NCBI GenBank assembly: GCA_031265355.1
Contig: JAISCT010000031.1
Span: 1 to 64,000, forward strand
Length of the DNA: 64,000 bases
Direction of reading: 5' to 3'
Source of the DNA: Oscillospiraceae bacterium
GTDB lineage: Bacteria > Bacillota > Clostridia > Oscillospirales > UBA929
The notes under the pieces were generated by a model. It was not told the origin of the DNA and did no database searches. It was given only the letters and a program-made list of their open reading frames with translations. Positions 10,701-40,937 of this stretch are shown here, one piece after another (position 1 is the first letter of the stretch; every line of letters starts with the position of its first letter). The position numbers were made by a program, and so were the translations under genes.

Positions 10701-10723
10701 TTAGATATATTTGAAAGGCATAC

Positions 10724-10737: not shown

Positions 10738-10741
10738 TCAT

Positions 10742-13509: not shown

Positions 13510-13544
13510 CCCAGTTCCAGATGGCAAAGAGGAGGAGATTTGAC

Positions 13545-17870: not shown

Positions 17871-17880
17871 ATTGACTGTT

Positions 17881-17914
17881 CCCCGGGCCCTTTCCGCCAA
17901 GGAGGGGCCCGGGG
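17881..17914 (+). other. intergenic GC hairpin
   Basis: CCCCGGGCCC (17881-17890) pairs perfectly with 17905-17914 across a 14-nt loop, just after the GH28 stop. There is no T-run, so it is more likely an mRNA-stabilising or partial termination element between co-transcribed genes than a full terminator. Confidence 0.45.
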
Positions 17915-17934
17915 GGCGCGAGTCGAGGAGTAAG

Positions 17935-19265: not shown

Positions 19266-22200
19266 ATGAAGAAGAGGACTCTATCACTGATGCTGGCCGC
19301 AGCGCTCCTCGTGTCCGCGGGGGCGGTGGCGGCCGTGGCGGCGCCTGAAACTGGGGACGACCCGTATTGGGACCAGGCGCGTTATGACAGCATCGAAACG
19401 GCTGTCATGAACAATGTCCCCAAAGTGCTGGACGCGGGCGGAAAGTATATCTACCAGACGGTGGACGGCACATTCGAGTACTCCGTCAGCATCCTCGATC
19501 CCAAGTTTAACAGCTACATCAAGGCGAACAACGAGGAGTACTATGTGGCGCGGCCCGGGTACGCGAGCCAGGCGATCCGCGCGGACCAATCGATCGTGGA
19601 CTACACCGCCGTGTTCGCCGCGGCCATCGCGGATGTGAAAGCCCAGGGCGGCGGCACCGTGGTGGTGCCGAGAGGATCTTTTGCCACCGGCGCGATCCGG
19701 ATCACGGGAGACAACATCCGGCTGCACATGGACGACGGGGCGGAGATCAAATTCGTCAGAACCAAGACCTATGAATTCTATCCGCAGGTGAAGACGCGCT
19801 TTGAGGGCATGGACCTGATGGGGTTCTCTCCGCTGATCTATGCCTACCAAGTGAACAACATCGCCGTCACGGGGTCCGGGAACGGCAATGAGGACACGCG
19901 CTCGGTCCTAAACGGCCAGGCGGACCGTTACAACTGGCTTCCCTGGAAAACGGCGGGCACTTCGTTCTGGGATGGGACGGCAACCAACACGATCCCAATG
20001 CAGCAGGGAAGCACCGCCGCCTACCGGACGGTGCAGTGGTCGGACGGAACGGCGATGACGGCGCGCGACCACCTCATCAAGATGGTGGAGGAGTGGGCGC
20101 CCATTGAGGAGAGAAACTACGCCGACTTGAACCCCGGCACGGCGGACCCGATTCTCAGGCCGGCCAACACGCTGCGACCCAGTTTTATCGAGCCGTACGG
20201 GTGCAAAAATGTGTTGATAGCGGACTTTAACCTGATCAATTCGCCGATGTGGGAGATCCATCCGCTGCTCAGCGAAAACGTCATGATCAGGGGCACGGAC
20301 ATCAACTCTCACCTGGGCAACAACGATGGCTGCAACCCGGAATCCAGCACCAATGTGATCATCGAGGACAACGTGTTTAACACGGGCGATGACTGCATTG
20401 CCATCAAGTCGGGGCGCAACAACGACGGATACACGGAGTGGAACCGGCCGACGACGGGCGTCATCGTCCGCAACAACGAGATGCGGGACGGGCACGGCGC
20501 GGTGACGGCCGGCTCGGAGATGTCCGGCGGCATTCAGTATGTGTTTGCCCACAACAACGTCTTCAATTCGGCCAATCTGGCCCAGGGCCTGCGCATCAAG
20601 ACAAACTCGGTGCGCGGCGGGTACCTGAAAGATGTGTACATGAAGGACTCGGTGATCCGCCAAATCGGCACGGCGCCGATCCACTGCACCTTCTACTACG
20701 AGGAAAATGACGCCGGGACGAGAACGCCCAAAGTGGAGAACATCTATGTCTCCAACTACAACACGGCGCCGGGCGTCGCCAGCATCGCCGCCGCCCAGTT
20801 CCTTTACGCGCGGCAGTACGGGTACTGCCCGGTGGAAAACGTAAACATAAAAGATTGCAATTTTAACGGCTTCAGCAATGCCCCGGCGACCAACAACACG
20901 GCATTGAACGACATCATCTGCGGGCGGGGCATCCGTTTCGAAAACGTCACGATCAACGGAGAACCGTATGTCTCTCCGGAACAGAGCGTCGAGATCGTGG
21001 ACATCATTGTCGACGACACCAGCGTCACAGACGCCGCGCAGCTCGTGGGCATCACAGGCAGCCACGCGGTGTACGCCGTCGTGCGCTCCAAAGCGTCCAA
21101 CATCGCCGGGACCATCGCCGGCACGTCGCGGGCGGCGTATCAGGCGTACCTGAGCGTGGGGTCCGGCCTCGGGTCGGCCGTGAGTCTCAACGGAAACGGT
21201 GTTGTGACAAGCCTGGGCGACGACCTGTACAAGGTCCGGCTGTCCGCCAACGCAAACCTTGGGACGGCGACCCGGCTTGAGGCGGTTGTGCGCAACGCAC
21301 TGTATACGGAGGATCAGGACTTCCGGTATTTCTCGCTCAGGCCTGCGGTGAAGGGGCTCTCTTTCCGCGGCGAGTGGCTGACCATCCAGTTCGACCGTGC
21401 TATGAACACGGCCGGAACCGGACGGGTCACCCTGTCTGGCGGCGCGGCCGCCGTCGATCCGGAGTGGAACGAAGAGGGCACGCAGATCACCTATGCACTT
21501 GAGGGAATTGTGTTCGGCGAGGCCTATGGCATCAGCGTGGGCAATTTTGCGGACGGCGGCAGCAAGGTCATGCGCACCTACGACACGGCGCTGACGGCCG
21601 CGAGCATAGACGACGTCAAAGAGGCCTGGACGGCGCTCGACCGCGCGGTGGCCGCGGCGGCGGCGTACCGCAACTCGGCTCTCTACACCGCGGCGTCGTG
21701 GGCGGCTCTCGCGCAGGCGCAGGCGGCGGCCGGGGCGCTGTCTCCCCACGCGAATCTCAGTGAGATCCTGGCGGTGGCGGCGGCGTTGAACGACGCAATC
21801 GCCGGCCTGACGCTGAAAAACTTCGAGGAATTTCCCACGGCCGTCGCCTCGTTCACAGGGCCGGAGAACGGTGCGGTCGGCCTGGCGTCGGTCTATACGC
21901 TGTCTTTGGCCCATGTGAAAAACTTGGCGACGGTGCGGGTGCGCTTCACGTACAACGAAGAGGTCCTCAGCCTGGACCGCTTGGAGTCACACAGCGGTTT
22001 TGAGATTTTGGAGAGACAGGAGGATACCGTCGTTCTCTACAACACGGAGGGGCTGACGGGAGACGACGCGCAGCCGCTGCTGACATTCCACTTCACGGCA
22101 AAGTCCTCGGGCAGAGCGGATGTGAAGATCACGGGTGTGGAAGCGGCCTCCTACCGTTCGGACAAGTCCGGCGCCGATGATATCGATGTAGACACGGCGG

Positions 22201-22421
22201 GTGCCGGGGAGATCCCCACGGATGTCAAAGAAAAGGACAGGTACGATTTCAACGGAGACGGCCGCGTCACACTCGCGGATCTCTCGACGGCGCAGCTCTG
22301 GTATATGAGCGCCGTGGGCGATGACAATTGGAACGACATCAAAGCGGCGGATCTGGACGGCAGCGGCGTCATCAATACGAAGGATTTCATCGACATCCTG
22401 AGATACATTCAAGCCCTTTGA
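19266..22421 (+). CDS. secreted GH28 polygalacturonase with cohesin-like domain and dockerin
   Basis: A 1051-residue enzyme; the ATG at 19266 follows AAAGGAGGA. The signal peptide ends near residue 26. The GH28 domain (about 28-575) has all four motifs: NNDG with Asp354, TGDD with Asp375/Asp376, GHG with His410, and Leu-Arg-Ile-Lys. It should therefore be a true galacturonan hydrolase, possibly exo-acting given its extended N-terminus. A linking beta domain, a FIVAR-like helical segment (788-852), a cohesin-like domain (858-979) and a dockerin (991-1050) follow. The last three modules closely parallel those of the protein at 13545. It lacks BIG2 and FN3 modules. The 200-base gap upstream is AT-rich near the start and could hold an extra promoter. 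Confidence 0.9.
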   Translation: MKKRTLSLMLAAALLVSAGAVAAVAAPETGDDPYWDQARYDSIETAVMNNVPKVLDAGGKYIYQTVDGTFEYSVSILDPKFNSYIKANNEEYYVARPGYASQAIRADQSIVDYTAVFAAAIADVKAQGGGTVVVPRGSFATGAIRITGDNIRLHMDDGAEIKFVRTKTYEFYPQVKTRFEGMDLMGFSPLIYAYQVNNIAVTGSGNGNEDTRSVLNGQADRYNWLPWKTAGTSFWDGTATNTIPMQQGSTAAYRTVQWSDGTAMTARDHLIKMVEEWAPIEERNYADLNPGTADPILRPANTLRPSFIEPYGCKNVLIADFNLINSPMWEIHPLLSENVMIRGTDINSHLGNNDGCNPESSTNVIIEDNVFNTGDDCIAIKSGRNNDGYTEWNRPTTGVIVRNNEMRDGHGAVTAGSEMSGGIQYVFAHNNVFNSANLAQGLRIKTNSVRGGYLKDVYMKDSVIRQIGTAPIHCTFYYEENDAGTRTPKVENIYVSNYNTAPGVASIAAAQFLYARQYGYCPVENVNIKDCNFNGFSNAPATNNTALNDIICGRGIRFENVTINGEPYVSPEQSVEIVDIIVDDTSVTDAAQLVGITGSHAVYAVVRSKASNIAGTIAGTSRAAYQAYLSVGSGLGSAVSLNGNGVVTSLGDDLYKVRLSANANLGTATRLEAVVRNALYTEDQDFRYFSLRPAVKGLSFRGEWLTIQFDRAMNTAGTGRVTLSGGAAAVDPEWNEEGTQITYALEGIVFGEAYGISVGNFADGGSKVMRTYDTALTAASIDDVKEAWTALDRAVAAAAAYRNSALYTAASWAALAQAQAAAGALSPHANLSEILAVAAALNDAIAGLTLKNFEEFPTAVASFTGPENGAVGLASVYTLSLAHVKNLATVRVRFTYNEEVLSLDRLESHSGFEILERQEDTVVLYNTEGLTGDDAQPLLTFHFTAKSSGRADVKITGVEAASYRSDKSGADDIDVDTAGAGEIPTDVKEKDRYDFNGDGRVTLADLSTAQLWYMSAVGDDNWNDIKAADLDGSGVINTKDFIDILRYIQAL

Positions 22422-22489
22422 TGGCTGCTGATCGCTGTGAACGGTCACATGATTGGAGAACCCCAAATATCGAGGAAAGGATTGAGACT

Positions 22490-25400
22490 GTGTTGAAGCT
22501 TATCAAACAGACCGCGAAACGCGCCGTGACGGCGCTGCTGGTACTGTCGTTGTTGGCAGCGCTGGGCCCGGCGGGGTTGGCTGCTTCTGCGGCCGGGTCC
22601 GTGACAGCCGCCGACGACGCCTTGGCGGCTTACGCCGACGAGGCGCCCGCCGGAAAGGACGTCGTATTTCGATCGACAGTCCAAGACGGCTTGATCGTCT
22701 TGTCGCTGATAAACGGTTCCTTAGAGGAAGTGAGCGGCCTTTTTATACTGGCGATATACAAAGACGGCCGGCTCGCGCACACGGAGATCGGTGACGACTT
22801 TGTCGCGAAAGCGGGGGGAATCGGCACCTACGAGTACACGGTGGACGCCACGGAGTATCCCGACAGTGCGTATGCGTACAAAGCGTTTTGCTGGGAAGCG
22901 GACTGTGTTCCGCTCGCGCCCGCCGTGTCGGTAAACTGGGCGCCCGACGACGTTTCGGCTGTTTCGCTGAACTGGGAAACGTACCCGCTGGTGGTGGGCG
23001 GCCGGACGCCGGCCAGTATGTTGGACAACGGCGATTTCTTCGATCTTGAGGCCACGATAGACGCGTCGCTGGCGCCGGGCGCCAAAGTCGTCTGGGCTTC
23101 CACAGATCCCGAAATCGTCAAAGTGAGTCAAACGGGGCGGATCAAAGCTGTCAGAACCGGTTTCGCAAACGTCGTCGCGGCGCTGGCGAACGGAGACGCC
23201 GCCGTGTGCCAGGTCTCCTGCATTGACAACTACGACCGCGCCACGGTGCGCTATGTGACGCTAAACGCCGATTTTTTGCAGCTCGCGCCCGGCGCCAGCG
23301 CCGATTTGACGCCCACCCTGTATCCGGTCAACGCCTACAATCTCAACGCCGGTTTCAGCGCGGTGCAGAACACCCAAACTTGGACGAGTTCCGATGAAAA
23401 TGTGGCCGCGGTGAACCAGACCGGAACCGTTACCGCCGTGGCGCCCGGCGAAGCCGTGATTACGGTCGTCTCCGACCAGATTGTCGCCCGCACGGCGCAA
23501 TGCCGTGTGATCGTCGGCGAAAGCGGCGCTTCCGGCATTTCCCTCGACCAGTCGAGTCTCGCCCTTCAGTGGGGAGAGGCGGCCCGTCTGACCGCCGAGG
23601 TCGCCGGTGTGTCCGAGCGGAGTGTTTCCTGGTCGACGAGCAACGCGGCCGTCGCCGATGTGGACGATACCGGTAAGGTGACGGCGTATGCCAGCGGCAC
23701 AGCCACGATCACGGCGACCTCGATCGACGGCGGGTTCAAAGCCGACTGCGCGGTGACGGTCACAGGCGTGCCCGTCGAGCCGATCTCGGTGAATCTCAAC
23801 CGGGCGCGTCTCAGCCTGCCCGTCGACAGCACGTCGTCTCTCACGGCCGTGGTGGTGCCCGCCAATACGACCTTTCAAACCATCACTTGGAGTTCCAGCA
23901 ACCCGGATGTGGTCAAGGTGGAAGAGGCCCCGGATACGACCATCTTCAACGCCCCCGTGGGCAATCTGACCGCCGTGGGGCCCGGCACGGCCGTGATCAC
24001 CGCCCGGTGCGGGTCTGTGGCCGCCACGTGCCCAATCACCGTGACCGCCGGTGTGGTGGACGCCGCCCAGGTCGCGCTCGACAAAACCGCGCTTTCCCTG
24101 GAAGTGGACGCCGTTGTGACGCTCTCCGCCACGGTGACGCCCGAAGACACGACCGATCCGTCTCTGTTTTGGGTGAGCACCGATACGCACGTCGCCTCCG
24201 TGAGTCTGGACGGCATTGTAAAGGCCTACGCCCCCGGGACGACCGAGATCATAGCCGTACCGAAGCGCTTTGTGGTCGGCGATCCGCTGACACCCAGTCT
24301 CCTAGATGCGCAGGAAATAGCGGATTCAGACGTATTTTCGGCGAAGCTTGCGGAGATCATCGACCGGTATCCGACGGCGTCCTGCATCGTGACGGTGAGC
24401 GCGCCCGCGGGCTCGGCGTACCTGCGCAACATAGTCGCGCCAGCCGAAGCGACCACGCCCCGCTCGGTGGGTCTGCTCTGGAATCGCTCCTCTCTGCTGT
24501 ACGCCGCCGAGTTTGACGCGTACAGGGTTTATGTGAACGGCGAGCTCCGCGACACGGTGGGGACCCTGGGCTATACCGTGAAGGGGCTTGCGCCCGGCAC
24601 CGCGTACACCTTCACAGTAGAAGCCGTCAAAACAAACGGCGAGGTGGCGCGCGCGCAGAGCATCGACGTGACCACAAAGCCGGATTACACAGCCGTTTTG
24701 GACGTGACCAAGGCGCCGTACAACGCCGTGGGGAACGGAAAGGTCACCGACACCTACGCCATTCAAAGGGCCGTCAACGATTGCCCGAAGGACGGCATGG
24801 TCTACCTGCCGGAGGGGTATGTCTTCTGGTCGGGCGCGCTCTTCTTAAAGAGCGACATGACGTTCAAGGTGGACGGCATTCTCATCGGGTCCATCGAGGG
24901 GAAGGACTACCCGAAGATGAACACCCGCTGGGAAGGCTGGCGCAAAGTGGACAAGGGTTATGTCGTCGACAACACCGCGAACCCCAAACAGCCAAACGAG
25001 AGAGCCCATGCCAGTCTTATCACCGTCGGCGCCTATGATGAAGGCGACAACAGCGCCTATGGTCCGTTCAACGTCTCCAACGTCGTGGTCTGCGGCAAGG
25101 GTCAGATCAACGCCAACGGCCTGCGGCTGAGCTACACGGAGCTCGACAGGAACAACACCCGCACCAACAGCAGCAGAGTGCGCGGCCGAGCGTTCACGTC
25201 GCACAACGTACAGGGTCTGTATGTGGCCGACGTGGGCATTGCCTGGAGCCCCTCGTGGATCACGCATTTGATCTACAGCGACAAAGTCACCTTCGACCAC
25301 TGTCTGGTGATCGGTTCCGGAACCGGTCTTGTCACCTCCGGCAAGTCTCGGCCCTCCCAGCTCGTGCCTGAACTTGTGAGCGAATACGGGACCGCCGGCA

Positions 25401-26374
25401 ACAGCGGGTCACGGTCCTGCATCATCAACGGCGATGGCATCGACCCGGATTCTTCAAGAAACTTCAATGTGTTCCGCTGCCTCTTCTCCGCGGGTGACGA
25501 CGCGATGGCCATGAAGTCCGGCCGCAACGGGCAGGGTTTCGATCTGCACAAACCGCTGGCGTACATCCGCGTGACCGACTGTCATGTGCAAAACTCCGAC
25601 GGCGGCCTGGCCATCGGCAGCGAGAACGCCGGCGGCGCCCACGACATCCTGTTCCAAAACTTGACCATGAAGAATGTTTCGCTGCACGGACTCTGGATCA
25701 AGAGCATGTGGGCCAGAGGCGGGCTGTTCGAGAACATCGACTTCAAGGACGCATGGATGACGGGCATAGACGCCAACGTGATCCTGATGGAATACCGGTA
25801 CAGCAGTTCCACTTCCGTGCCGGCGCGTACGGTCCCGGTTATGCGGCGTTTGCTCTTTGAAAACTGCCATGGCTACGGAACCAACGGCAGAGGTTTTGGC
25901 TTCCGCGGGACGCCGCTGCCGTCGGGGTTCGATGCAACGACCGGGCTGGGTACCGAGACGACCATCCTCCGTGAAGACAGTCGGGTCACCGAAACGGTCG
26001 TCCGTCCGCTGGGATACGTGCAGGACGTCATCATGAAGGGCTGCAGCCTCACAGGGCGGGTCACGAACACCAGCGCCAGCAACCAAGCGTGCATCCATGT
26101 GGCGGACAACTTTGACATTTACGACACGGACGTATCGGCGCTGGCGGGGACAAGCAATACAAACCGTGTGGTGTGGACGTACGGCACGGCGGCTGAGGCC
26201 GCTGTCACGACGCGCATTCGTTTCCACGATGAGTGCCCGGATGAATTCGTGAGACTGCAGGAGAAAGGCAAAACCAGAGAGGAGATGTATCCGTACTATC
26301 TCAGCGAGGACGTACATCCCTATTACAAGAGCTACAACAGTTTCAATACGCTGTACCCGCTTTATCCGTACTAA
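22490..26374 (+). CDS. secreted BIG2-FN3-GH28 protein without a dockerin
   Basis: A 1294-residue protein; I chose the GTG at 22490, nine bases after GGAAAGG, because it begins a clear signal peptide (to about residue 34). An N-terminal domain (56-143) resembles that of the GH115 protein. Then come about five BIG2 repeats (157-637), FN3 (642-730) and GH28 (737-1213). Catalytic acids are Asp982 (NGDG) and Asp1003/Asp1004 (AGDD). The GHG His is replaced (Ser-Asp-Gly-Gly) and the Arg-Ile-Lys motif is Trp-Ile-Lys, as in the protein at 13545. The C-terminus is a Tyr/Pro-rich tail with no anchor or dockerin, so the enzyme may be free or held through its BIG2 repeats. Confidence 0.87.
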   Translation: MLKLIKQTAKRAVTALLVLSLLAALGPAGLAASAAGSVTAADDALAAYADEAPAGKDVVFRSTVQDGLIVLSLINGSLEEVSGLFILAIYKDGRLAHTEIGDDFVAKAGGIGTYEYTVDATEYPDSAYAYKAFCWEADCVPLAPAVSVNWAPDDVSAVSLNWETYPLVVGGRTPASMLDNGDFFDLEATIDASLAPGAKVVWASTDPEIVKVSQTGRIKAVRTGFANVVAALANGDAAVCQVSCIDNYDRATVRYVTLNADFLQLAPGASADLTPTLYPVNAYNLNAGFSAVQNTQTWTSSDENVAAVNQTGTVTAVAPGEAVITVVSDQIVARTAQCRVIVGESGASGISLDQSSLALQWGEAARLTAEVAGVSERSVSWSTSNAAVADVDDTGKVTAYASGTATITATSIDGGFKADCAVTVTGVPVEPISVNLNRARLSLPVDSTSSLTAVVVPANTTFQTITWSSSNPDVVKVEEAPDTTIFNAPVGNLTAVGPGTAVITARCGSVAATCPITVTAGVVDAAQVALDKTALSLEVDAVVTLSATVTPEDTTDPSLFWVSTDTHVASVSLDGIVKAYAPGTTEIIAVPKRFVVGDPLTPSLLDAQEIADSDVFSAKLAEIIDRYPTASCIVTVSAPAGSAYLRNIVAPAEATTPRSVGLLWNRSSLLYAAEFDAYRVYVNGELRDTVGTLGYTVKGLAPGTAYTFTVEAVKTNGEVARAQSIDVTTKPDYTAVLDVTKAPYNAVGNGKVTDTYAIQRAVNDCPKDGMVYLPEGYVFWSGALFLKSDMTFKVDGILIGSIEGKDYPKMNTRWEGWRKVDKGYVVDNTANPKQPNERAHASLITVGAYDEGDNSAYGPFNVSNVVVCGKGQINANGLRLSYTELDRNNTRTNSSRVRGRAFTSHNVQGLYVADVGIAWSPSWITHLIYSDKVTFDHCLVIGSGTGLVTSGKSRPSQLVPELVSEYGTAGNSGSRSCIINGDGIDPDSSRNFNVFRCLFSAGDDAMAMKSGRNGQGFDLHKPLAYIRVTDCHVQNSDGGLAIGSENAGGAHDILFQNLTMKNVSLHGLWIKSMWARGGLFENIDFKDAWMTGIDANVILMEYRYSSSTSVPARTVPVMRRLLFENCHGYGTNGRGFGFRGTPLPSGFDATTGLGTETTILREDSRVTETVVRPLGYVQDVIMKGCSLTGRVTNTSASNQACIHVADNFDIYDTDVSALAGTSNTNRVVWTYGTAAEAAVTTRIRFHDECPDEFVRLQEKGKTREEMYPYYLSEDVHPYYKSYNSFNTLYPLYPY

Positions 26375-26423
26375 ACCCCAAGGCCGTGTCAGCGGTGATG
26401 CCGCTTCACGGCGCCGCAAATTG

Positions 26424-26489
26424 TTTGGGAGGCGGACAGCCGACGTTCACGGCGACGCCGCCGCGGAGCGGTAGCGTCCGCCTCCCAAA
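26424..26489 (+). other. long-looped hairpin before the 2606-residue gene
   Basis: A 14-bp perfect stem (arms 26424-26437 and 26476-26489, TTTGGGAGGCGGAC and complement) around a 38-nt GC-rich loop, 50 bases after the preceding stop. No T-run follows. It may partly end transcription or stabilise the upstream mRNA. Confidence 0.45.
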
Positions 26490-26535
26490 CCGCTTTGGAA
26501 TGTCGGCCATTAAACATTTTTAGGAGTGACAGCTG

Positions 26536-29500
26536 ATGAAAATGATCTACAAGAACGCGAAGCCCGTATTGGCGTTGGCACTTGCCGTGATTATGATGTT
26601 TGCATCGAGCGGGGGACTTGTATTTGCGGCGGGAAGGACGGTCAATACCGGCGCGGCCCCATCCGCGACAAACGTCGGCACCGCCGTCGTTCTTCCGACA
26701 TCCGGCGCGCCCGGCGGTACCGGAAGTATTTCAATCAACACCGCAGGGACCATAGTCAGCGGCACGACTTCTTACGGGCGTATGCCGCTTTCGAACACCG
26801 TGGGCGATGTATTGCATTTTATCGGCACACAAGTCGTCAGGGCTGACGGCCCTTATAAGGTTTCGACGTATGTAAGGATGACCGCCCAAAGCGGCAACGC
26901 CGGCGCTGGCGTTATGGTTCGTGACAACAGCAATTCGGCCAGTGTAGCCTACGCCGCGTCGTACCTTCGGTACTCAACCGACGCCCCTGGCGGGTATAAT
27001 TACCAGACGCACCGGCGTACTTCGAGCGGAGCCGATTCGGGTTCGGCCACGAACCCGTTTACAATGGGAGCGACCAACCCCGGATTAACCCCTGTGTCGG
27101 TGGATGTCGACACGAACGGCGTATCAACGATGACGACGCCGAACGCGTCCGCCGACAAAAACGACGTCGCGATAACGTATACCCCGAACATCTGGATCGG
27201 GCTGTGGGTCGGCAGGATGACGGTTGAATTCACCAGTTCGCGTATCCTGCAAAAACCCGGGACGGCGCAGGAATCCACACTGTGGCAGACCGAATCCCTC
27301 GCGACGCCGACGAACGGCGGATTCAGCTTCAGCGAAAACGACGTAGTGCTGACATGGAACGCGGTAACAGGCGCGAACCGTTACCGCGTCGAAAGCCCGC
27401 TCGGAACCCTGGTAGGCACTTCGGAGACGGCGACATATACGGTCGGCAACTCGGCCGGTGGCGCGACGTATTACATAATCGCCGAGAACTCGACGGAAGG
27501 CACAATCTTCCCTTCGGATGGCAAATATCTGAACAAGCCGCCGCTGGCGGTAGAGGTTGAGTCGGCGACCGGCCCGTATAACCTCATTTACAGCGCCAAC
27601 GGCGGGGTTGGTCCGGTTCCGGCGACGGTGCAGTATGACGAGGACGAAACCGTCAATGTAGCTTTCACACCCGCGCCGACAAAGGCCGGCAACAACTTCT
27701 TGGGCTGGAGTTTTGACCCCGCCACAACCGGCGCGCCTGCGTATGCGCCGGGAGGCACGGCCACGTTCCCGATGCCCAGGGGATCGAGAACGCTCAACGC
27801 CATGTGGGAGCGCAGGGTCGTCTTTGACGCGAACGGCGGCGACGTAACGCCCCCGGAGCGGTATGTCACGGTCGGTACGCAGATAGGCGCGCTCCCAGCT
27901 TCAGCGGGCACGAAAGGCCTCAGCCAGTTTGGGGGCTGGTCGGCGTCGGCGGCTGGCGATACGCCATATACCGAGACGACGACCGTCACAGCCGGCGACG
28001 CGTTGACGCTGTACGCGATCTGGAACGGGCCTTACGCCGTTTCTTACAACGCCAACGGCGGCGCGGGCGTACCGGCCGCCGCCGATTACGCGATCGGATC
28101 GACCGTTGACGTGGCGTTTGCGCCCGCGCCGGCCAAAGCGGGCAACAACTTCCTCGGCTGGAGCCCCGCCCCGGCCGTTAACGGCGCGCCCGCTTACAGT
28201 TCGGGCGGCACGACGTCCTTCACGATGGGCAACGCGGCCGTAACGCTGAACGCAATGTGGGCGAGACAGGTCAACTTCGATGTAAACGGCGGCACGGGGT
28301 CGGCGCCGAGCAGGTTCGTGGCTGTCGGCACGGTGCTGGGCGCGCTTCCGGCGGACCCCGAGCCCGGCGACCCATCCAAGAAATTCGGCGGCTGGGGCAC
28401 GCTGCCGACCGGCGGCACGAGATATTCAGCCGGCACTGTCGTGGCGTCGGGCGACGCCCTGACGCTGTACGCGCTTTGGGCCGAGCCGCCTACCGCCCAA
28501 AAAGAAGTCCTTGTGCGCAAGGACGGCTCGGGCGATTTCACGACAATCAAAGAAGCGTATAATTTCCTCCGCGACAACGATCTCCCGAACCGGACGATCG
28601 ACGTCGGACCCGGTACGTTCACCGAGAAATTGACTATCAGGTTCCCGGTCACGATCAGCGGCGCGGGAAGGGGTACGGGCGACGACGCGACAATCATTAC
28701 ATGGACAGACGGCAACAGGACCCCGTTCCGCCCGGACGATACCGAGACCGAGCGCGACAAGGAGTATCTGTATCCGAGCATTCGTCCAGGCGGCCCGGCC
28801 GGCCCCGAGCCGAACGGCAGTTATGGCACGATGGGTTCGTATTCGGTCGGGTTCTTCCCCGGCTCCGAGGGTTCCGTTATCAAAAATTGCGCAGTCACCA
28901 ACACCGCCGGTACCAATGTGGGGCAGACCGTGGCGCTGTTCTTCAACGCCGACAGGTGTATCGCCGATAACATCAGGCTGGACGCCCCGAGCAGCGATAC
29001 GTTCCTGGTACACGATTGCAGAGCGTATGTCGTCAACTCGGAAATCCATGGCTCAACCGACTTTATATTCGGCAACGGCCAGGCCGTGATCTATAACAGC
29101 ACGATCAATATCAAAACCACCGGCGGTTGCATGGCGGCTCCGTCTACCGACGTCCGGATCCCTTACGGCATACTGATCGAGAAATGCACGATCACCGGCG
29201 GCGGCAGTAGCGCTTCTTTGGGCCGGGCATGGCAGTGGAACCAAAATGCGAAAGAACCGGCGGAAAGGTACACCGTCGGCGGATCGGCGCTGCTTAAAAA
29301 CAACACCGTAACAGCCACCACAACCGCGAACGGCTTTACGAACGGCACCGGAGGCGGGACCCCGCTTAGCCAGCGCCTGCGTGAATACGGGAGCGTAAAC
29401 GCGGCGGGAACTCTTCTCACATTAAACGCCACGCGGCAGGCGCTTCAGCTTACCCAGGCCCAGGCGGACGATTACAACGTGTTTAACGTACTCGGTGTCA

Positions 29501-32500
29501 ATCAATACAGCACCTCAAGCGATACGCTGTACGCCGAGCCGTGGATACCCCGATATGACACCTTCACGACGCCCGTTACCGAGATCAAAAACGTCAGCAT
29601 CACGTCCGAAAACGGGGTGAAGATCGGCAGCGTGACCACCGCGCCTATCGGCGACACCATCAAGCTCAGGTTTGACGTGACAGAGAAGCTGTTCCCGATG
29701 ACGAAGCCGATCGTCAACTTCAGGATCGGCGGCAGGGAAGCTGCCGAGGCAGTCTCGTTCTACGAGGAGATCGCCCCGAACAGATATGAGGCGACCTTCA
29801 AGGTCAACTTCAGCGACCACACCACCGGTTCGGACACCACATACGGCACGGCCGAGCCGGAGCGCAGCGTAAACCACGGCGGCATCGACGGCGCGGTTGA
29901 GTTCACGATTCAGGGCATCGGCCTTGATGGAAATGACATCACTCCCGTGAGTGCAACGAGCGACGGTACGTCGGTCGTCGTTGACAGGACGCTTCGCGCG
30001 ATACCCGACGCTCCCGTCGTCTCACCGACGGCTGACAAGGCCGACCCATACTGGGACGACGAGATGTACGCGTATGTCGAGGATACCGTAATGGACAACG
30101 TACCTCTGTTCCTCGAGGCCTCGGGTATCCCCGAGTTCAAGATCACCGACGCCAAGTACGCGGACCTTATCCGCACCGCGAACGAGGGCGGCACGGACCG
30201 CCAGGATTACACGAACGTGTTCAAGGCGGCCATCGCCGACGCCAACGCGGTCGGCACCGGCGCGAAGGTCATCGTGCCTGGCGGGGACAATGTTGTTTAC
30301 TACACCGGCGCGATTCACCTCTTGAGCAACGTCAACCTTGTCGTTGAGCAAGGCGCGACGGTGAGGTTCCTGAGGATTATCTCGCAGGAATACTATCCGA
30401 TCGTGCTGCAAAGCTTCGAGGGGCAGGAACTCTACAACTATTCCCCGCCTATCTACGCTCTGAAGCAGAAGAACATCGCGGTTACCGGCGAAGGCACGCT
30501 GGACGCTCAGTACTCGGGCGGCTGGAGCACGAGGACAGGCGACAAAATGGCGCTCAACAAGGATTCCGACCGCGCCGTACCGGTCGTCAAGCGCATCTAT
30601 ACCGATTCAGCCGGACCCACCGCCGGTCAGATGCCCGCTACGATCCCGGTTATCGACGGCGATGAAGTGAAATATGTCGCGCTGCCGGCGGGGGCGGTGA
30701 ACAACAGGATCGGTCTGCGTCCGTGTTTCATCCAGCCATACGCTTGTGAGAACATCATTCTCCGCGATGTGGCCTTAAGAGGCACCCCGATGTGGAACGT
30801 CGCCCCGGTGAGCTGCAGCAACGTGCTGGTTGACGGGCTGGACATCAACGCTGTTGGCATCGGCAACGGCGACGGAGTGAATCCGGTATCCACACAGTTT
30901 GTTATCATCCAGAACGTCTCGTTCGCGACCGGCGACGACTGCATCGCCATCAAGAGCTTTAAGAACGGCGACGGCCTGAGAAGAAACGAGCCGAGCCAGT
31001 ACATCATCGTCAGGGACTGTGCGTTCGCGAACGGTCACGGTGGCGTCACGTGCGGGAGCGAGATATCCGGCGGTATCAGGTGGGTCTTCGCCGAGCGGTG
31101 CGCTTTCAGCAGTCCGAGCCTTGGGTATGCCCTCAGGTTCAAGGTGAACTCCTTCCGCGGAGCCACCATCGAAAACATCTATGAGCGCAACAGCACCATA
31201 TCCAGGTCCTCCGACGCGGTGCTGTATATCGAATCGTCCTACACGTCCGGCAACAACCAGGACAGGGTGGGAGATCTCGGAAAGTACACGCCGCGTCTCA
31301 ATAATATCTATATCAGCGACTTCACGACGCCGGCAGGCGCCAGCATCGGCTGCACAAACTTCGTCAGGATGACCGCGTACACCCGCGCGCCGATCAACGG
31401 CGTGCACATCAAGAATTCTACGTTCAGGGGCGTCGGGGCCAGCACCGTTGAGAGCTTATCCGGCTGGGAGCTTATCAACGTAGGTACGACGACCGCCGCA
31501 AATCCGAGCGGCACCCCGACTATCGTGAACTCGATCCCAATGAAGATAGCGAACGTCAAGCTCAGCGGCGGCGGTGTGTCGGCCGACCTCAAGGACACGT
31601 TGACATACGGCAACAACAGCGTCGCCATTATGAAGAGATCCGGCACAGCCTACATGGTGTCGGGCAAGCTTGAGACCGCCTCAAGCACGACCCCGACGAT
31701 CAGGGTGTTCACCGGAAGGAGCAAGACCAGTTACGCAACCGCGACCGTCACCCCGACAGCCAGCGGGTATAACTTCACCGCCAATGTAACCCTCGCGGCA
31801 ACCGAGAATTTTTATTATATCAACATCACTGCCCAGAACGGCACGTGGGCCGCTTCCAACCTCAACCAGACCACAGCGGTTCATAACGTTGTGATGACGG
31901 ACTACGCTTGGCCAAGAGACGAATTGCCGGTTCAGTTCACCACGGAATCGGTCACGGTCGATGCGAACGCCGAGGCGGTTTATGACAACGCGATCCCGGT
32001 CGATGTCTCTAAGAAGCGTAGCGCGGCCGCGACAGCCGACGCCCCCGACTGCACGACGACCGGCGTCGCCAGGGCGGTTTGGGACGGCGCGAATATGTAT
32101 ATCCTCGTTGAGGTCACGGACGCGAGCGTACGTACGGCAGGCACCGGGGTAAATACAGACGGCGTCGAGTTCTATATCGATTTCGACAACGACAAGCTGA
32201 TGAAAGACCCGGCCGGGCGCAAAATGCACGACAACACAGAAAACGGTGTCAGCAGCGCTTGGGCTGAAGATTACCTTATCCGCGTAGCAAGCAACGGCAC
32301 GGTCAGCGGCACCGGGCCCCGGGGCGGCACGTTTAACCAGCGCCTTGTCAGTTCCGCGGCACGCATTACCCCCACGGGTTATAACGTCGAGCTTGCGCTT
32401 GCGCTCGGTGGACTTCCAAAGGTAAACGGCGCCAATTTCGGTTTCGACATCGGCATCAACGACATGACCTCGACCCAGACCGCCCGCCAGCACAGGGTAT

Positions 32501-34356
32501 TCTGGCACAGAACCGACGGCGCAGACCTGGTCGACGTTTCGACATGGGGCAGCGCAGTGTTGGAGGGCTACAACGGAACCGACCCGCGCAAGCCCGATAA
32601 ATACTGGATAAGCGAGTATATAAAGCGCATAGAAACGACAGGAACTGTCCCTGTGAACATGTACCAGTTCCCGCGCGGCAAGTTCCCGCAGGGACAAATC
32701 GAGCTCGACGCGGCAGTCGCCCAGGCCAAAGCCGTCATCGCCGATTCGTCGGCCACATACCTCGATACCGACGCGGCTGCCGAACGCCTTCGCAACGCGA
32801 TACTGAACCTGCCAAACGAGGGCAAGTTCCCGAATCCGAAGGATCTGCCGACCATAGGCTACATGCCAAACCCATTCGAGTTCTTCGACGGCAGCCCTGT
32901 GGAAGCGCCGTCGGATTGGAAAGCACGCAGTGCCGAGCTTAAGGACCTGATGTCCTACTACGAGTTCGGTGATTGGCCGGCCCCGCCGCAGAGCCTGACG
33001 GCGACCGTCGGCACTGCGGTGGTTGGTGAGTCCAACCGCTTTAACATCCCGATCAATATCACCGACAACGGCAGGAACGCGACGCTCGACGCGACGATAA
33101 CGCTGCCGCAGGGCGCGGGGCCGTTCCCGGTCATCGTTTTTCTCGATTTCAGCGGCACGTACTCCGGTTACAATGCGTACCGCGACGCCAGCGTCAGCCA
33201 AGGTTTCGCGCTGATGCGTATCCAATACGACACGATAGCCAGCGACACGCTGAACACGCGCACCGGCCCGTTCTTCACACTGTATCCGTGGGCTGAAGCG
33301 GACGCCGGTTCCGAGCTGACATGGGCGTGGGGAGCCTCGCGCTGCGCGGACGCCCTGGATTATATCATGGCGAACAACGCGGCTTACGCCGGAAGGTTCG
33401 ACATGGATAAGCTGGTTGTCGCGGGATTCTCGCGCACCGGCAAGGCCGCGCTTCTCGCCGGCCTGTACGACGAGCGGTTCAAGGTTGTAAACCCAATAGC
33501 CTCCGGCAGCGGCGGCGCGGGCGTCTACAGGTACGACGCGTTTAACAACAACTACAGCGGGATCTTTACAAACCCGGCGGCGCTAAACGCTGCCGACTGC
33601 GAAATCCTGCCGGAGCACATCAACAACTTCGGCAACAACGCAAACTCGATGCTGTGGCGTTTCCTGGATTTCGATAAGAATTACAAGCGTGACACGCCGT
33701 TCGGTTACGGCGGGCGTCTGCCGTACGACCATCACGAGATCATCGCCGCGATCGCACCGAGGGCCGTCATCATCAGCAGTATCAACGACGACCACCACAA
33801 CCAGCCCGAAGGCGACGCCACCGGATACGAGGGCGCGAAACCCGTGTTCGAATTCTTGGGCGTGCCGCAGAACATCGCGCTGGACGTGCACCGCGCGGGC
33901 GGCGGCCATTCCGTTAAACAGGCTCAGTGCGAAAACGTCGTGGCGTTCGCCAAGATGGTGTTCTTCGGGACGGAAATGTCGGCGACACTGCGAAATCATC
34001 TCTACTTAAACCCATATGTCGCGACATTCGACCGATACTACGGCGGTCTTGACGCGATGATGCCCTGGCGGCATACGTTCGACGGCGCGTCCTTTGAGGA
34101 CTACATGATCCTCGACAGCAGTATCTCGGGCAACGTGATTGCATCGGCGAAGATATCAGCCAAGAAAGACGCCAATCTTGTACTGGCCGCGTTCGGCGAG
34201 CGCAACGAGTTGATCAATGTCAAGGTACTGCCGGTTGCAGAAGGCACAGGCAGCTATGATCTTGCGTTCGACTTCACCAGCGCCGCGGAGGTCAGGGCGT
34301 TCTTCTGGGATATTGACAGCTACGAACCTTTGTGCGAACCTAAAAAACTGCACTAA
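26536..34356 (+). CDS. trifunctional secreted enzyme: CE8 pectinesterase, GH28, CBM9-like, CE15 glucuronoyl esterase
   Basis: A 2606-residue exoenzyme with a signal peptide (to about residue 32). An N-terminal beta-rich region and FN3-like segment are followed by four InlB/Flg_new-type repeats (347-650). CE8 spans 656-998, with Gln797, Asp821 and Asp842; the two Asp are 21 apart as in known pectinesterases, though the residue before Asp821 is Ser instead of Gln. GH28 spans 1169-1645 (NGDG Asp1446, GDD Asp1467/1468, GHG intact, Arg-Phe-Lys for Arg-Ile-Lys). A CBM9-like domain covers 1800-2011. CE15 covers 2098 to the end, with nucleophile Ser2299 in GFSRTGK (usually GCSRxGK) and His2458 in GGGHS. 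It would demethylate and cut pectin and split lignin-glucuronate esters. The ATG follows a GGAG site. Confidence 0.87.
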   Translation: MKMIYKNAKPVLALALAVIMMFASSGGLVFAAGRTVNTGAAPSATNVGTAVVLPTSGAPGGTGSISINTAGTIVSGTTSYGRMPLSNTVGDVLHFIGTQVVRADGPYKVSTYVRMTAQSGNAGAGVMVRDNSNSASVAYAASYLRYSTDAPGGYNYQTHRRTSSGADSGSATNPFTMGATNPGLTPVSVDVDTNGVSTMTTPNASADKNDVAITYTPNIWIGLWVGRMTVEFTSSRILQKPGTAQESTLWQTESLATPTNGGFSFSENDVVLTWNAVTGANRYRVESPLGTLVGTSETATYTVGNSAGGATYYIIAENSTEGTIFPSDGKYLNKPPLAVEVESATGPYNLIYSANGGVGPVPATVQYDEDETVNVAFTPAPTKAGNNFLGWSFDPATTGAPAYAPGGTATFPMPRGSRTLNAMWERRVVFDANGGDVTPPERYVTVGTQIGALPASAGTKGLSQFGGWSASAAGDTPYTETTTVTAGDALTLYAIWNGPYAVSYNANGGAGVPAAADYAIGSTVDVAFAPAPAKAGNNFLGWSPAPAVNGAPAYSSGGTTSFTMGNAAVTLNAMWARQVNFDVNGGTGSAPSRFVAVGTVLGALPADPEPGDPSKKFGGWGTLPTGGTRYSAGTVVASGDALTLYALWAEPPTAQKEVLVRKDGSGDFTTIKEAYNFLRDNDLPNRTIDVGPGTFTEKLTIRFPVTISGAGRGTGDDATIITWTDGNRTPFRPDDTETERDKEYLYPSIRPGGPAGPEPNGSYGTMGSYSVGFFPGSEGSVIKNCAVTNTAGTNVGQTVALFFNADRCIADNIRLDAPSSDTFLVHDCRAYVVNSEIHGSTDFIFGNGQAVIYNSTINIKTTGGCMAAPSTDVRIPYGILIEKCTITGGGSSASLGRAWQWNQNAKEPAERYTVGGSALLKNNTVTATTTANGFTNGTGGGTPLSQRLREYGSVNAAGTLLTLNATRQALQLTQAQADDYNVFNVLGVNQYSTSSDTLYAEPWIPRYDTFTTPVTEIKNVSITSENGVKIGSVTTAPIGDTIKLRFDVTEKLFPMTKPIVNFRIGGREAAEAVSFYEEIAPNRYEATFKVNFSDHTTGSDTTYGTAEPERSVNHGGIDGAVEFTIQGIGLDGNDITPVSATSDGTSVVVDRTLRAIPDAPVVSPTADKADPYWDDEMYAYVEDTVMDNVPLFLEASGIPEFKITDAKYADLIRTANEGGTDRQDYTNVFKAAIADANAVGTGAKVIVPGGDNVVYYTGAIHLLSNVNLVVEQGATVRFLRIISQEYYPIVLQSFEGQELYNYSPPIYALKQKNIAVTGEGTLDAQYSGGWSTRTGDKMALNKDSDRAVPVVKRIYTDSAGPTAGQMPATIPVIDGDEVKYVALPAGAVNNRIGLRPCFIQPYACENIILRDVALRGTPMWNVAPVSCSNVLVDGLDINAVGIGNGDGVNPVSTQFVIIQNVSFATGDDCIAIKSFKNGDGLRRNEPSQYIIVRDCAFANGHGGVTCGSEISGGIRWVFAERCAFSSPSLGYALRFKVNSFRGATIENIYERNSTISRSSDAVLYIESSYTSGNNQDRVGDLGKYTPRLNNIYISDFTTPAGASIGCTNFVRMTAYTRAPINGVHIKNSTFRGVGASTVESLSGWELINVGTTTAANPSGTPTIVNSIPMKIANVKLSGGGVSADLKDTLTYGNNSVAIMKRSGTAYMVSGKLETASSTTPTIRVFTGRSKTSYATATVTPTASGYNFTANVTLAATENFYYINITAQNGTWAASNLNQTTAVHNVVMTDYAWPRDELPVQFTTESVTVDANAEAVYDNAIPVDVSKKRSAAATADAPDCTTTGVARAVWDGANMYILVEVTDASVRTAGTGVNTDGVEFYIDFDNDKLMKDPAGRKMHDNTENGVSSAWAEDYLIRVASNGTVSGTGPRGGTFNQRLVSSAARITPTGYNVELALALGGLPKVNGANFGFDIGINDMTSTQTARQHRVFWHRTDGADLVDVSTWGSAVLEGYNGTDPRKPDKYWISEYIKRIETTGTVPVNMYQFPRGKFPQGQIELDAAVAQAKAVIADSSATYLDTDAAAERLRNAILNLPNEGKFPNPKDLPTIGYMPNPFEFFDGSPVEAPSDWKARSAELKDLMSYYEFGDWPAPPQSLTATVGTAVVGESNRFNIPINITDNGRNATLDATITLPQGAGPFPVIVFLDFSGTYSGYNAYRDASVSQGFALMRIQYDTIASDTLNTRTGPFFTLYPWAEADAGSELTWAWGASRCADALDYIMANNAAYAGRFDMDKLVVAGFSRTGKAALLAGLYDERFKVVNPIASGSGGAGVYRYDAFNNNYSGIFTNPAALNAADCEILPEHINNFGNNANSMLWRFLDFDKNYKRDTPFGYGGRLPYDHHEIIAAIAPRAVIISSINDDHHNQPEGDATGYEGAKPVFEFLGVPQNIALDVHRAGGGHSVKQAQCENVVAFAKMVFFGTEMSATLRNHLYLNPYVATFDRYYGGLDAMMPWRHTFDGASFEDYMILDSSISGNVIASAKISAKKDANLVLAAFGERNELINVKVLPVAEGTGSYDLAFDFTSAAEVRAFFWDIDSYEPLCEPKKLH

Positions 34357-37233: not shown

Positions 37234-37974
37234 GTGCGTTGCGAGATCCTGGGGATCGAGTTCGACAATGTGACCATAGATGAGGCGCGGGCCCGTGCGC
37301 TCTTCTTTCTGGATGATGAGACGCCCGACGGCGGCGCGCGCCTGATCGTGACGCCAAACGCCGAGATCGTGATGATGTGCCGCCGCGACGCGGCGGCGCG
37401 GGAGGCGGTGCGCGCCGCCGATCTCATATTGCCAGACGGCGTAGGCGTCGGAATTGCATCCCGGATTTTGGAGCGGCCGCTGCGCGCGCGCATGGCTGGC
37501 ATCGATTTTGCCGAGGCGCTGCTGCCGGCGCTGGCCGCGCGGGGGCGCCGGTTATTTTTCCTCGGCGCCGCGCCCGGCGTGGCCGAGGAGGCGGCGCGCC
37601 GCGCCGCCGCGCGGCACGCGGGGCTTGTGATCTGCGGCACGCAGGACGGATATTTCACGCGGGACGAGGACGCGGCGGCCGCAGTCCGAGCGGTCGGGGC
37701 GGATGTCGTCTTCGTCTGTCTCGGCGCACCGAAGCAAGAACTGTGGATGCGCGCGCACGCCGCCGCCACCGGGGCGCGGCTGCTGGTGGGGCTCGGCGGC
37801 ACGCTGGATGTGTGGGCGGGCCGCGTGCGGCGTGCGCCGACGCTGTGGATCCGCTTGGGGCTGGAGTGGCTTTATCGGTTGTTGTGTCAGCCGAGGCGGT
37901 TGTGGCGCATGCTGAAGCTGCCCGTCTTTTTGTGGACTGCGTGGCGCGCCCACAGGAGAGAAAAGAGACAATGA
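37234..37974 (+). CDS. WecG/TagA/CpsF-family glycosyltransferase
   Basis: A 246-residue transferase of the family that adds N-acetylmannosamine to lipid-linked GlcNAc in teichoic-acid or capsule assembly, at the inner face of the membrane. Visible are the Ile-Val-Thr-Pro-Asn-Ala-Glu segment, LPDGVGVGIASRILERPLRARMAGID, the FFLGAAPGVAEEAA glycine-rich region and VFVCLGAPKQELWM near the C-terminus. An in-frame GTG at 37177 also has a good AGGAGG, but it overlaps the -10 box of a promoter; GTG 37234 has GGGGAGAGG just before it and matches the family start. MBOAT and DHHW genes follow on the same strand, so it probably belongs to a surface polysaccharide pathway. Confidence 0.9.
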   Translation: MRCEILGIEFDNVTIDEARARALFFLDDETPDGGARLIVTPNAEIVMMCRRDAAAREAVRAADLILPDGVGVGIASRILERPLRARMAGIDFAEALLPALAARGRRLFFLGAAPGVAEEAARRAAARHAGLVICGTQDGYFTRDEDAAAAVRAVGADVVFVCLGAPKQELWMRAHAAATGARLLVGLGGTLDVWAGRVRRAPTLWIRLGLEWLYRLLCQPRRLWRMLKLPVFLWTAWRAHRREKRQ

Positions 37975-38042
37975 ATCCGCGGTCCGGGCAGGGGCCGCCG
38001 CAGAGGCGCCGCTTTGGGCGGCCGGGGAGGGAACCGAGCGAG

Positions 38043-39446
38043 ATGGTCTTTTCGAGTCTCATTTTTTTATATATCTTTTTTCCGCTCTGTGCCCTCATCT
38101 ATTTCACCGTGCCGAAGCAGCGGGGGAGGAACATCGCTCTGTGCCTCAGTTCGATGATATTTTATGCCTGGGGCGAACCGCTTTGGGTCGTCTTGCTTGT
38201 GTTCTCGGCGCTGGTGGATTACGTAAACAGCAAGATCATCGACGCCCACCGCGGTGCATGGCAGGCCAAGGCCGCCCTGGTGGCTTCGATAGTCATCAAT
38301 CTTGGGCTGTTGTTTACCTTTAAATATCTCGATTTCTTCCTCAGCGTGTTCGGTTGGGTCGCCCGCATCGAGGCGCCGGTGGTCGGGCTGACGTTGCCGA
38401 TTGGCATCTCGTTTTACACCTTCCAGACGATGTCTTACACGATCGACGTATACCGGAACAACGTCAAGGTGCAGCACAGTTTCATGAATTTTTTGCTGTT
38501 TGTGTCGCTGTTTCCGCAGCTCATCGCCGGCCCTATCGTGCGGTACAGCGAGATTGCGGAACAGATCGACGAGCGGACCACCACATTGCCGGACATGGCG
38601 GCCGGCCTTACACGGTTCATGACGGGCCTCGGCAAAAAGGTCCTGATTGCAAATTTTGCGGGCGCCACGGCGGAGAGCATCCTCACCGCCGATCTGGCGG
38701 GTCTCTCGTGCGTCGAGGCGTGGATCGGCATCTTATGCTTTACTTTTCAGATCTATTTCGATTTTTCCGGGTATTCCGACATGGCGATCGGCCTCGGCCG
38801 GTTCTTCGGTTTTCGCTATGGGGAGAATTTTCGCCATCCGTACATCGCCCGGTCCATCACGGAGTTCTGGCGGCGGTGGCATATCTCGCTTGGCACCTTC
38901 TTTCGCGATTATCTCTACATCCCGTTGGGCGGCAACCGGCGGCGGCAGATGCGCAACATCTTGATTGTCTGGTTTCTGACCGGCCTGTGGCACGGCGCGA
39001 GTTGGAATTTTGTGCTGTGGGGTCTCTATTTCGGAGCGTTGCTGCTGCTCGAAAAGTATTGCCTGCAGGGTGTCTTGCGGAAGCTGAAGTGGGGCGCCGC
39101 GGCGTATACCTTCCTGTTGGTGGTGCTCGGGTGGGTGCTGTTTTATTTCACCGACTTGTCGCGGGCCTTCGCCTTTGTGAAGGTGCTCTTTGGGGGCGGC
39201 GTCCCGTTTGACGCGCGCGCGCGCATCCTCCTGCTCAACAACCTGCCGCTGCTTGTGCTGTGCGCCGTCGCCTCGACGCCGCTCGGCGTGTGGGCCGTCG
39301 GCAAGGTACGTGTGTACGCACAGACTGCCCTGCCCCGTGCGGCCTGTACGGCCGTGTTCCTCGCCGGTCACGCGGGCATGCTCTTCCTGTGTACGGCCTC
39401 TCTGGTGGGCGCCAGCTACAACCCATTTTTGTATTTCCGCTTTTGA
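38043..39446 (+). CDS. MBOAT-family membrane O-acyltransferase (AlgI/DltB-like)
   Basis: A 467-residue membrane protein with about 10-12 hydrophobic segments. The MBOAT signature lies in the second half: Phe-Trp-Arg-Arg-Trp-His-Ile-Ser-Leu followed by GLWHGASWNF, whose His is the expected catalytic one. Such proteins move acetyl groups across the membrane for polysaccharide or teichoic-acid O-acetylation. The ATG at 38043 has GGGAGGG eleven bases upstream; the frame upstream of it overlaps the previous gene and is not coding. The adjacent DHHW protein is the usual extracytoplasmic partner. Confidence 0.92.
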   Translation: MVFSSLIFLYIFFPLCALIYFTVPKQRGRNIALCLSSMIFYAWGEPLWVVLLVFSALVDYVNSKIIDAHRGAWQAKAALVASIVINLGLLFTFKYLDFFLSVFGWVARIEAPVVGLTLPIGISFYTFQTMSYTIDVYRNNVKVQHSFMNFLLFVSLFPQLIAGPIVRYSEIAEQIDERTTTLPDMAAGLTRFMTGLGKKVLIANFAGATAESILTADLAGLSCVEAWIGILCFTFQIYFDFSGYSDMAIGLGRFFGFRYGENFRHPYIARSITEFWRRWHISLGTFFRDYLYIPLGGNRRRQMRNILIVWFLTGLWHGASWNFVLWGLYFGALLLLEKYCLQGVLRKLKWGAAAYTFLLVVLGWVLFYFTDLSRAFAFVKVLFGGGVPFDARARILLLNNLPLLVLCAVASTPLGVWAVGKVRVYAQTALPRAACTAVFLAGHAGMLFLCTASLVGASYNPFLYFRF

Positions 39447-39503
39447 CGCGGCGCCGCGTCACAGAATGAATGGATAAATATGGAAACCACGGAGGAAAAG
39501 AGC

Positions 39504-40937
39504 ATGAAACGGATCCCGGCGCTGGTCCTTGTTTTCTGCTTGCTGCCCATGTTCGTGCTTGGCGTGGTCAGCGTGCTTGATGCGGGAGAGACGGTGTCTG
39601 AGCTCGAACAAAGGACATTGGGAGAGAAACCGGCTTTTTCGTGGAGCGCCCTCTTTGCCGGGACGTACACGCGCGCGCTGGAAGATTATTACGCCGACAC
39701 CTTCCCGCTTCGGGACGTCTTCCTGCGCGCCAGCACCGCGTTGGGGCATTTTTATTACTTCAACGCCGGAGAGGAGGCTATCCTGGTGGTCCCGCACCAG
39801 GGCGCCGACCCGGACGTCGGGGGTATCGAGTTGAGCGGCGAGGCGGACGCTGTGCCGTCCGTGCCGGAGACGCCGGCGTCCCAGCCGCCCGTGCCGGAGG
39901 CGGCGCCGCCGAAGAGCACGCCGGAGGGTCCGGCCGTGTCTCCCTCCGAGACGCCGGCCCCGACCGCCCCGATCGATTACCCGGAGATGTCCGAGGTCGT
40001 GAACGCGGGCAATATAGTCATCATCGGTGACAGGGCGATGGAGATTCCCTATGTGAACAAGGCGACGGTGACCCGCTACGCCGGCATTATGAACGCCGTG
40101 GTCGGCGCGCTGCCCGGGGTGCAGGTCTATGCGCTGACAACGCCCAACGCAGGCGAATTCTATTCGCCGGTCTCGATGCACTCCGGTACTACGTCCCAGC
40201 GGGATATGATAGCGCTGATGTACGGGCAGCTCGCGTCCGGCGTCCGGTCGGTCGACGCCCACACGGTCCTGAGCCGGCACACCGACGAGTATATTTTCTT
40301 TCGCACCGACCACCACTGGACGGCGCTCGGCGCCTACTACGCCTACACGGCGTTTTGTGAATCAGCCGGCCTGTCCTACTCGGACATCTCCGAGTTTACT
40401 ACGGGCGTCTACGAAAACTTTGTCGGCAGCATGTATGGGTTTACGGCCAAATACCCGCAGAGTCGGGTGCTCCGGGACAACCCGGACAGCCTTACCTACT
40501 ACCTGCCTATTGTACCGAGCACCGCGACTGTCTATTCCTCGGGCCGGCTGGAAGACGGACGTACGGCGTCTGTCGTGTCGGAAAGCATCTCCGCCTCCTA
40601 CGGGAACAAATACATCTGTTTCATCGACGGGGACAACCCGCTGTCGGTCGTCCGGAGTGAAAACGGGAGCGGCCGCTCGATCGTCGTAGTCAAAGAGTCC
40701 TACGGCAACGCCTTTGTTCCCTTCCTGACATCCCACTACGAGACCATCTACGTCGTCGATCCGCGCCACGTGAACGGCAAGGGGCAGCCGAGCCTTAACC
40801 TGTTGGAACTGATCCGGACACAGAACATCGATGATGCATTGTTTATCAATTACCCGTTCTCTATCAACAGCGCCGGCTATTGCTCCATGCTCGAACGGCT
40901 GACGGAGGGCGCACAAAACGGCGGTTCCGCGGAATGA
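39504..40937 (+). CDS. DHHW-family (AlgJ/AlgX-like) secreted protein
   Basis: A 477-residue protein with one N-terminal hydrophobic segment (signal anchor or signal peptide), a Pro-rich linker (about residues 110-160), and an SGNH-like domain containing Thr-Asp-His-His-Trp-Thr, the hallmark of the DHHW/AlgX family. It probably completes O-acetylation of an exported polysaccharide with the MBOAT protein just upstream. The ATG at 39504 has GGAGG eight bases before it; an earlier in-frame ATG at 39480 lacks a ribosome site. The Pro-rich linker is longer than I expect for the family and may span the wall. Confidence 0.87.
   Translation: MKRIPALVLVFCLLPMFVLGVVSVLDAGETVSELEQRTLGEKPAFSWSALFAGTYTRALEDYYADTFPLRDVFLRASTALGHFYYFNAGEEAILVVPHQGADPDVGGIELSGEADAVPSVPETPASQPPVPEAAPPKSTPEGPAVSPSETPAPTAPIDYPEMSEVVNAGNIVIIGDRAMEIPYVNKATVTRYAGIMNAVVGALPGVQVYALTTPNAGEFYSPVSMHSGTTSQRDMIALMYGQLASGVRSVDAHTVLSRHTDEYIFFRTDHHWTALGAYYAYTAFCESAGLSYSDISEFTTGVYENFVGSMYGFTAKYPQSRVLRDNPDSLTYYLPIVPSTATVYSSGRLEDGRTASVVSESISASYGNKYICFIDGDNPLSVVRSENGSGRSIVVVKESYGNAFVPFLTSHYETIYVVDPRHVNGKGQPSLNLLELIRTQNIDDALFINYPFSINSAGYCSMLERLTEGAQNGGSAE

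Follow-up and report, generated by a model that had tools for sequence, protein, structure and literature searches.

The CE15 esterase family is normally tied to xylan-lignin bonds. The question of whether these enzymes have a natural role on pectin dates from 2024 and was based chiefly on gene neighbourhoods and results with model substrates (PMC10807430). CE15 enzymes of pectin-type loci accept esters of both galacturonate (GalA) and glucuronate (GlcA) but do not act on methyl esters of the backbone (PMC10807430). Their targets are probably side chains or pectin-lignin esters and not xylan; the determinants of GlcA versus GalA preference are unclear and not readable from sequence (Seveso et al. 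2024, PMC10807430). In the pectin-type PULs of PvCE15, PdCE15 and PiCE15A, the CE15 gene is accompanied by genes for GH28 and further pectin enzymes, as in the locus described here, but these are separate proteins of Bacteroidota, and PvCE15 keeps Trp355 (PMC10807430).

The window, which is the whole 64,000-nucleotide stretch of DNA that was analysed, contains an uninterrupted plus-strand frame of 2606 codons, with no stop and no N, in agreement with the first-pass annotation, which had read it as a single 2606-residue polypeptide. The features of the gene, with the module order obtained from profile and fold searches (four List_Bact repeats, CE8, GH28, CBM9-like and CE15), are the following:

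26423-26490, plus strand: 68-nt stretch directly ahead of the gene with a 17-bp stem, resembling a terminator or leader (folding)
26522-26526, plus strand: AGGAG, probable ribosome-binding site, 9 nt ahead of the ATG at 26536 (sequence)
26536-34356, plus strand: secreted multi-enzyme of 2606 aa, whole frame (translation)
26536-26634, plus strand: Sec-type signal peptide, about residues 1-33 (by eye: begins with basic residues, has a hydrophobic core and ends in small residues)
26635-27567, plus strand: N-terminal region, residues 34-344, with no Pfam match
27568-28485, plus strand: four List_Bact (Flg_new) repeats, about residues 345-650 (Pfam, four stretches, E 1e-29)
28498-29565, plus strand: CE8 pectinesterase module, residues 655-1010 (Pfam, AlphaFold model)
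28993-28998, plus strand: Ser820 and Asp821 of CE8 (alignment with CE8 relatives)
30118-31485, plus strand: GH28 module, residues 1195-1650 (Pfam, structure and family-model matches)
31957-32568, plus strand: CBM9-like module, residues 1808-2011 (Pfam, fold match to 1i82, TM 0.81)
32818-33990, plus strand: CE15 module, residues 2095-2485 (Pfam, alignment, fold match)
33991-34353, plus strand: C-terminal segment, residues 2486-2606, the first part common to Acidobacteria relatives

The upstream hairpin has a folding z of -4.19 and is not followed by a T-run; as the genome holds one copy of it, a repeated mobile element was rejected. A convergent gene about 100 nt past the end of the frame appears by eye to encode a RarA-like ATPase.

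All modules score above the curated Pfam cut-offs, and CE8 (PF01095, 5e-21), GH28 (PF00295, 5e-14), CBM9_1 (PF06452, a broad CBM9-like family, 1e-21) and CE15 (PF22244, 3e-37) are all present in one translation. AlphaFold models match the PME, CBM9 and CE15 folds. Because Pfam scores and fold matches agree, no module is assigned to another family, and the four assignments made in the first-pass annotation hold, with the List_Bact repeats as an extra that it had not mentioned.

The CE8 module combines its profile with a right-handed beta-helix of CE8 type, whose model (pLDDT 81) gives a VIA Z of 36.9 to PemA (1qjv; 2.8 Å over 301 residues), where unrelated beta-helices reach a Z near 18. The alignment shows that Q797, both catalytic Asp (D821 and D842), R897 and W899 are retained. 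The second anion-hole Gln expected of an active pectin methylesterase (Q135 in the carrot enzyme, Q177 in PemA) is absent, being replaced by Ser820 together with a one-residue insertion. This Gln is found in 31/31 sampled CE8 relatives, which leaves Ser820 alone among 32, and it is kept in solved PMEs, PmeC5 included; in addition, the LGRPW motif reads LGRAW. Since Ser820 takes the place of the anion-hole Gln, the methylesterase activity predicted for this module appears uncertain, with about even chances. Judged from these departures, the possibility that CE8 is a pectin-binding or dead module with no methylesterase activity, which would make the protein effectively a GH28-CE15 enzyme, comes close to an even chance but falls a little short of it, as the other Gln, both Asp, the Arg and the Trp are kept and the fold score is on par with true PMEs, and as PmeC5, a reported PME, itself lacks the other Gln (Arg206 at the Gln153 position; PMC12109409). 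This alternative fits either view of CE15 considered below. The residue numbers given earlier (D821, D842, D1446, D1467/D1468, S2299 and H2458) are correct, and the accompanying description of all catalytic sites as intact stands for GH28 and CE15, which are complete; it is too strong for CE8, because Ser820 has no counterpart among the relatives, so that three working catalytic sites are unsupported.

In the GH28 module the three catalytic Asp, the His and the Arg-x-Lys accompany the PF00295 profile, with D1446, D1467 and D1468 found in 37/37 aligned members and H1501, R1534 and K1536 in most. The module is closest to exo-polygalacturonases and alpha-galacturonidases (3jur match, E 1e-53), and its score of 187 bits (5e-55) against NF049892, the BT4155 alpha-galacturonidase model, lies below the NCBIfam cut-off of 800 and indicates kinship, not membership. 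The nearest sampled GH28 is that of the adjacent gene 19266-22421, a weakly supported grouping (86/73, long branches).

The CBM9-CE15 part was modelled with a pLDDT of 75, and both Pfam and fold comparison show a CBM9 fold in its first portion, matching 1i82. The CE15 module has the alpha/beta-hydrolase fold and profile of its family (7nn3, E 2e-27), with the GxSRxGK motif present as GFSRTGK and a triad of S2299, D2419 and H2458. Among 50 aligned CE15 sequences, S2299 and K2303 are conserved in 50/50, R2300 in 49/50, H2458 in 48/50, and an acid (D/E) at the D2419 position in 48/50. D2419 is added here to the residues noted before; its counterparts in the alignment are Asp353 in PvCE15 and Asp311 in CkGE15A. 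Two residues past it, His2421 occupies the position of Trp358 of OtCE15A, a Trp present in 39/50 of the sequences and absent in every member of the small clade to which this CE15 belongs. The Trp is reported to contact glucuronoxylo-oligosaccharides and to matter for TtCE15A activity, and CkGE15A carries Gly at this position (PMC8280721); therefore His2421 alone leaves glucuronoyl esterase activity possible, and the Trp does not define the CE15 family.

The closest CE15 relatives are CBM9-CE15 proteins of Acidobacteria, with 44-51% identity; two of them, L076 and L077, align with residues 1796-2514 at 44-45% identity. In the CE15 tree the module and Acidobacteria sequences group together (97/87) within a clade of seven rows (100/100), and the CE15s from its own family (L089 and L098) are placed separately. 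The clade lacking the Trp (L076, L077, L078-L081 and L086) consists mostly of CBM9-CE15 proteins of Acidobacteria and rumen Clostridia. The L076 gene adjoins a GH10 xylanase and a GH3, and the Acidobacteria MAG of L077 has two CE15 genes (8273-11320 and 16250-17815) within 6 kb, on opposite strands. Because the nearest CE15s are CBM9-CE15 proteins, a CE8-GH28 enzyme seems, from the sequence comparison, to have gained a ready-made enzyme of this kind, and the simplest history would be a local pectinase that acquired a CBM9-CE15 cassette.

The genes preceding the fusion are the following:

2114-7006, minus strand: 1630-aa fusion of a GH115 alpha-glucuronidase with a GDSL esterase
7629-9107, minus strand: altronate/galactarate dehydratase (UxaA type)
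9104-10741, minus strand: tagaturonate reductase (UxaB; NF002969, 609 bits, cut-off 359)
11433-12512, plus strand: LacI-type regulator
13497-17870, plus strand: Big_2 repeats, GH28 and a dockerin-like end
17872-19065, plus strand: SLH-anchored protein
19266-22421, plus strand: GH28 with a dockerin-like end
22328-26374, plus strand: Big_2 repeats, fn3 and GH28

The surroundings are a galacturonate and pectin island: the same 25 kb contains three further GH28 genes besides UxaB, the UxaA-type dehydratase and the LacI regulator, and four of the five GH28 of the genome lie in it. A search of the genome for GH11 found none, and its one GH10 match is partial and weak.

The SLH-anchored secreted protein (17872-19065) sits between two GH28 genes with dockerin-like ends (13497-17870 and 19266-22421), and its N-terminal half looks cohesin-like by eye. 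Another SLH protein, encoded elsewhere in the same genome (L142:540-4738), has a Pfam cohesin (1.5e-9) and adjoins a dockerin-bearing GH3. The bacterium may have a small cellulosome-like system for pectin that is bound to the wall. The genome also encodes a second giant GH28 protein (L140:2390-9145; 2252 aa), which carries F5/8 type C, CBM35 and CBM6 modules and adjoins a GH92, and, behind its sole GH10 match, which is partial, a 1575-aa GH3-CBM9 protein (L141:4264-8988). In the window, 37377-40937 holds an MBOAT and DHHW/AlgX-like pair, probably for polysaccharide O-acetylation.

Our slight preference is for a secreted multicatalytic CAZyme that is directed at pectin, with a CE15 that cleaves the uronate esters linking pectin to other wall polymers. 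The substrates and the module cooperation that we infer would be as follows. The List_Bact repeats may serve as a spacer or surface-contact region, CE8 would bind pectin and perhaps demethylate it, and GH28, exo-type by kinship, would remove galacturonate from demethylated homogalacturonan. The CBM9-CE15 half, brought in as a two-module enzyme, would use its CE15 to break the ester bonds through which uronic acids (GlcA or GalA) in side chains or at chain ends join pectin to lignin, to glucuronoxylan or to the side chains of rhamnogalacturonan. This would make the wall accessible to GH28, and the freed galacturonate could enter the UxaB/UxaA pathway encoded next door.

A pectin role is the leading view for this CE15 because of the pectin-locus enzymes and the CE15-GH106 fusion named in PMC10807430, and CE15 may still serve glucuronoxylan because GH115 is in the island and L076 lies beside GH10 and GH3. 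It is rather doubtful that CE15 simply keeps its classical role, cleaving lignin esters of 4-O-methyl-GlcA on glucuronoxylan at a pectin-xylan-lignin junction, with GH115 removing the freed GlcA. Besides GH115 and the neighbours of L076, such a role agrees with the binding of cellulose, xylan and xyloglucan by the CBM9s of a known CE15 fusion (PMC8280721) and with the closest solved structure, CkGE15A, being from a xylanase fusion, but it fits poorly with a gene placed in a galacturonate island of a genome poor in GH10/GH11, and with the loss of the xylan-contact Trp across the clade, although CkGE15A has Gly there. The role at pectin-glucuronoxylan junctions suggested by the first-pass annotation is thus possible on the evidence of GH115 and L076, but it is not the sole reading in view of the island, the missing GH11, the weak GH10 and the pectin-locus enzymes (PMC10807430). 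The preferred pectin-directed reading has a more specific form, which we consider unlikely: a dedicated pectin-lignin (or pectin-glucuronoxylan) decoupling enzyme, in which a CE15 of the Trp-less clade and pectinases would perform both cleavages on one chain. Such an enzyme, if real, would connect the pectin role proposed for CE15 with homogalacturonan enzymes through a physical fusion.

To place the architecture, whole-protein searches covered 18 family, 394 order and 391 class genomes (in the latter two sets scoring was limited to the top two candidates of each genome, which suffices to catch an orthologue), and a CE8-module search covered 398 phylum genomes; in these combined searches of about 1,200 phylum genomes no second copy was found. 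A lineage-wide fusion was accordingly rejected for the family, order and class genomes. In none of 58 CE15 loci, drawn from a collection of one genome per species for 84,980 species, does the CE15 frame also encode CE8 or GH28 (blastp with modules), and CBM9 ahead of CE15 is common among them. Single-protein scans of genome contigs and viral contigs gave no match, and a plasmid collection gave GH28 or CE8 matches only separately. Other Bacillota have large CE8 proteins (2473, 1731 and 1583 aa), and these were rejected as counterparts, having SLH, fn3 or Big domains and no CE15 or GH28. Literature searches yielded no CE8-CE15 protein, in line with the first-pass annotation, which knew of none. 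The architecture is confirmed and is unique in the material searched. What is new is the combination, as the modules themselves and the kind of system are known. An assembly artefact, with two neighbouring or unrelated genes fused in frame, is very improbable, even though the architecture has no second example and the host is a MAG of 81 contigs (3.08 Mb, 95.8% complete), as the frame is continuous, third-position GC is 0.65-0.84 in all modules and similar to that of neighbouring genes, contamination is 1.36%, and the GH28 module groups, if weakly, with the adjacent GH28; the gene is present in one copy.

Among known systems, CkXyn10C-GE15A of Caldicellulosiruptor kristjansonii (PMC8280721) is likewise a secreted bacterial multicatalytic enzyme with CBM9 directly before CE15, and its CE15 is 32% identical in the fold alignment, with a Ser-His-Asp triad and no Trp at the Trp358 position. 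However, there the other catalytic module is a GH10 xylanase, accompanied by CBM22 and SLH, and the protein has three CBM9 and no CE8 or GH28. PmeC5 of Butyrivibrio fibrisolvens (2089 aa; PMC12109409) is, like the present protein, large, secreted and multi-domain, and it pairs CE8 with another pectinase, but this is a PL9; CE15, GH28 and CBM9 are not reported, and Gln230-Asp231 is kept. In OtCE15C, named in PMC10807430, CE15 is fused to a rhamnogalacturonan-type pectin enzyme, in this case GH106, with no mention of CE8, GH28 or CBM9. The Acidobacteria proteins L076 and L077 share CBM9-CE15 and part of the C-terminal segment, but have 885 and 1016 aa and no CE8 or GH28. The present protein shows a module swap: an Oscillospiraceae-type MAG encodes a pectinase combined with a CBM9-CE15 unit whose closest sampled kin are in Acidobacteria. 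A covalent CE15-GH28-CE8 fusion in a galacturonate island is stronger evidence of linkage than the gene neighbourhoods known from other CE15s, and it allows GalA and GlcA ester cleavage to be compared in a single protein.
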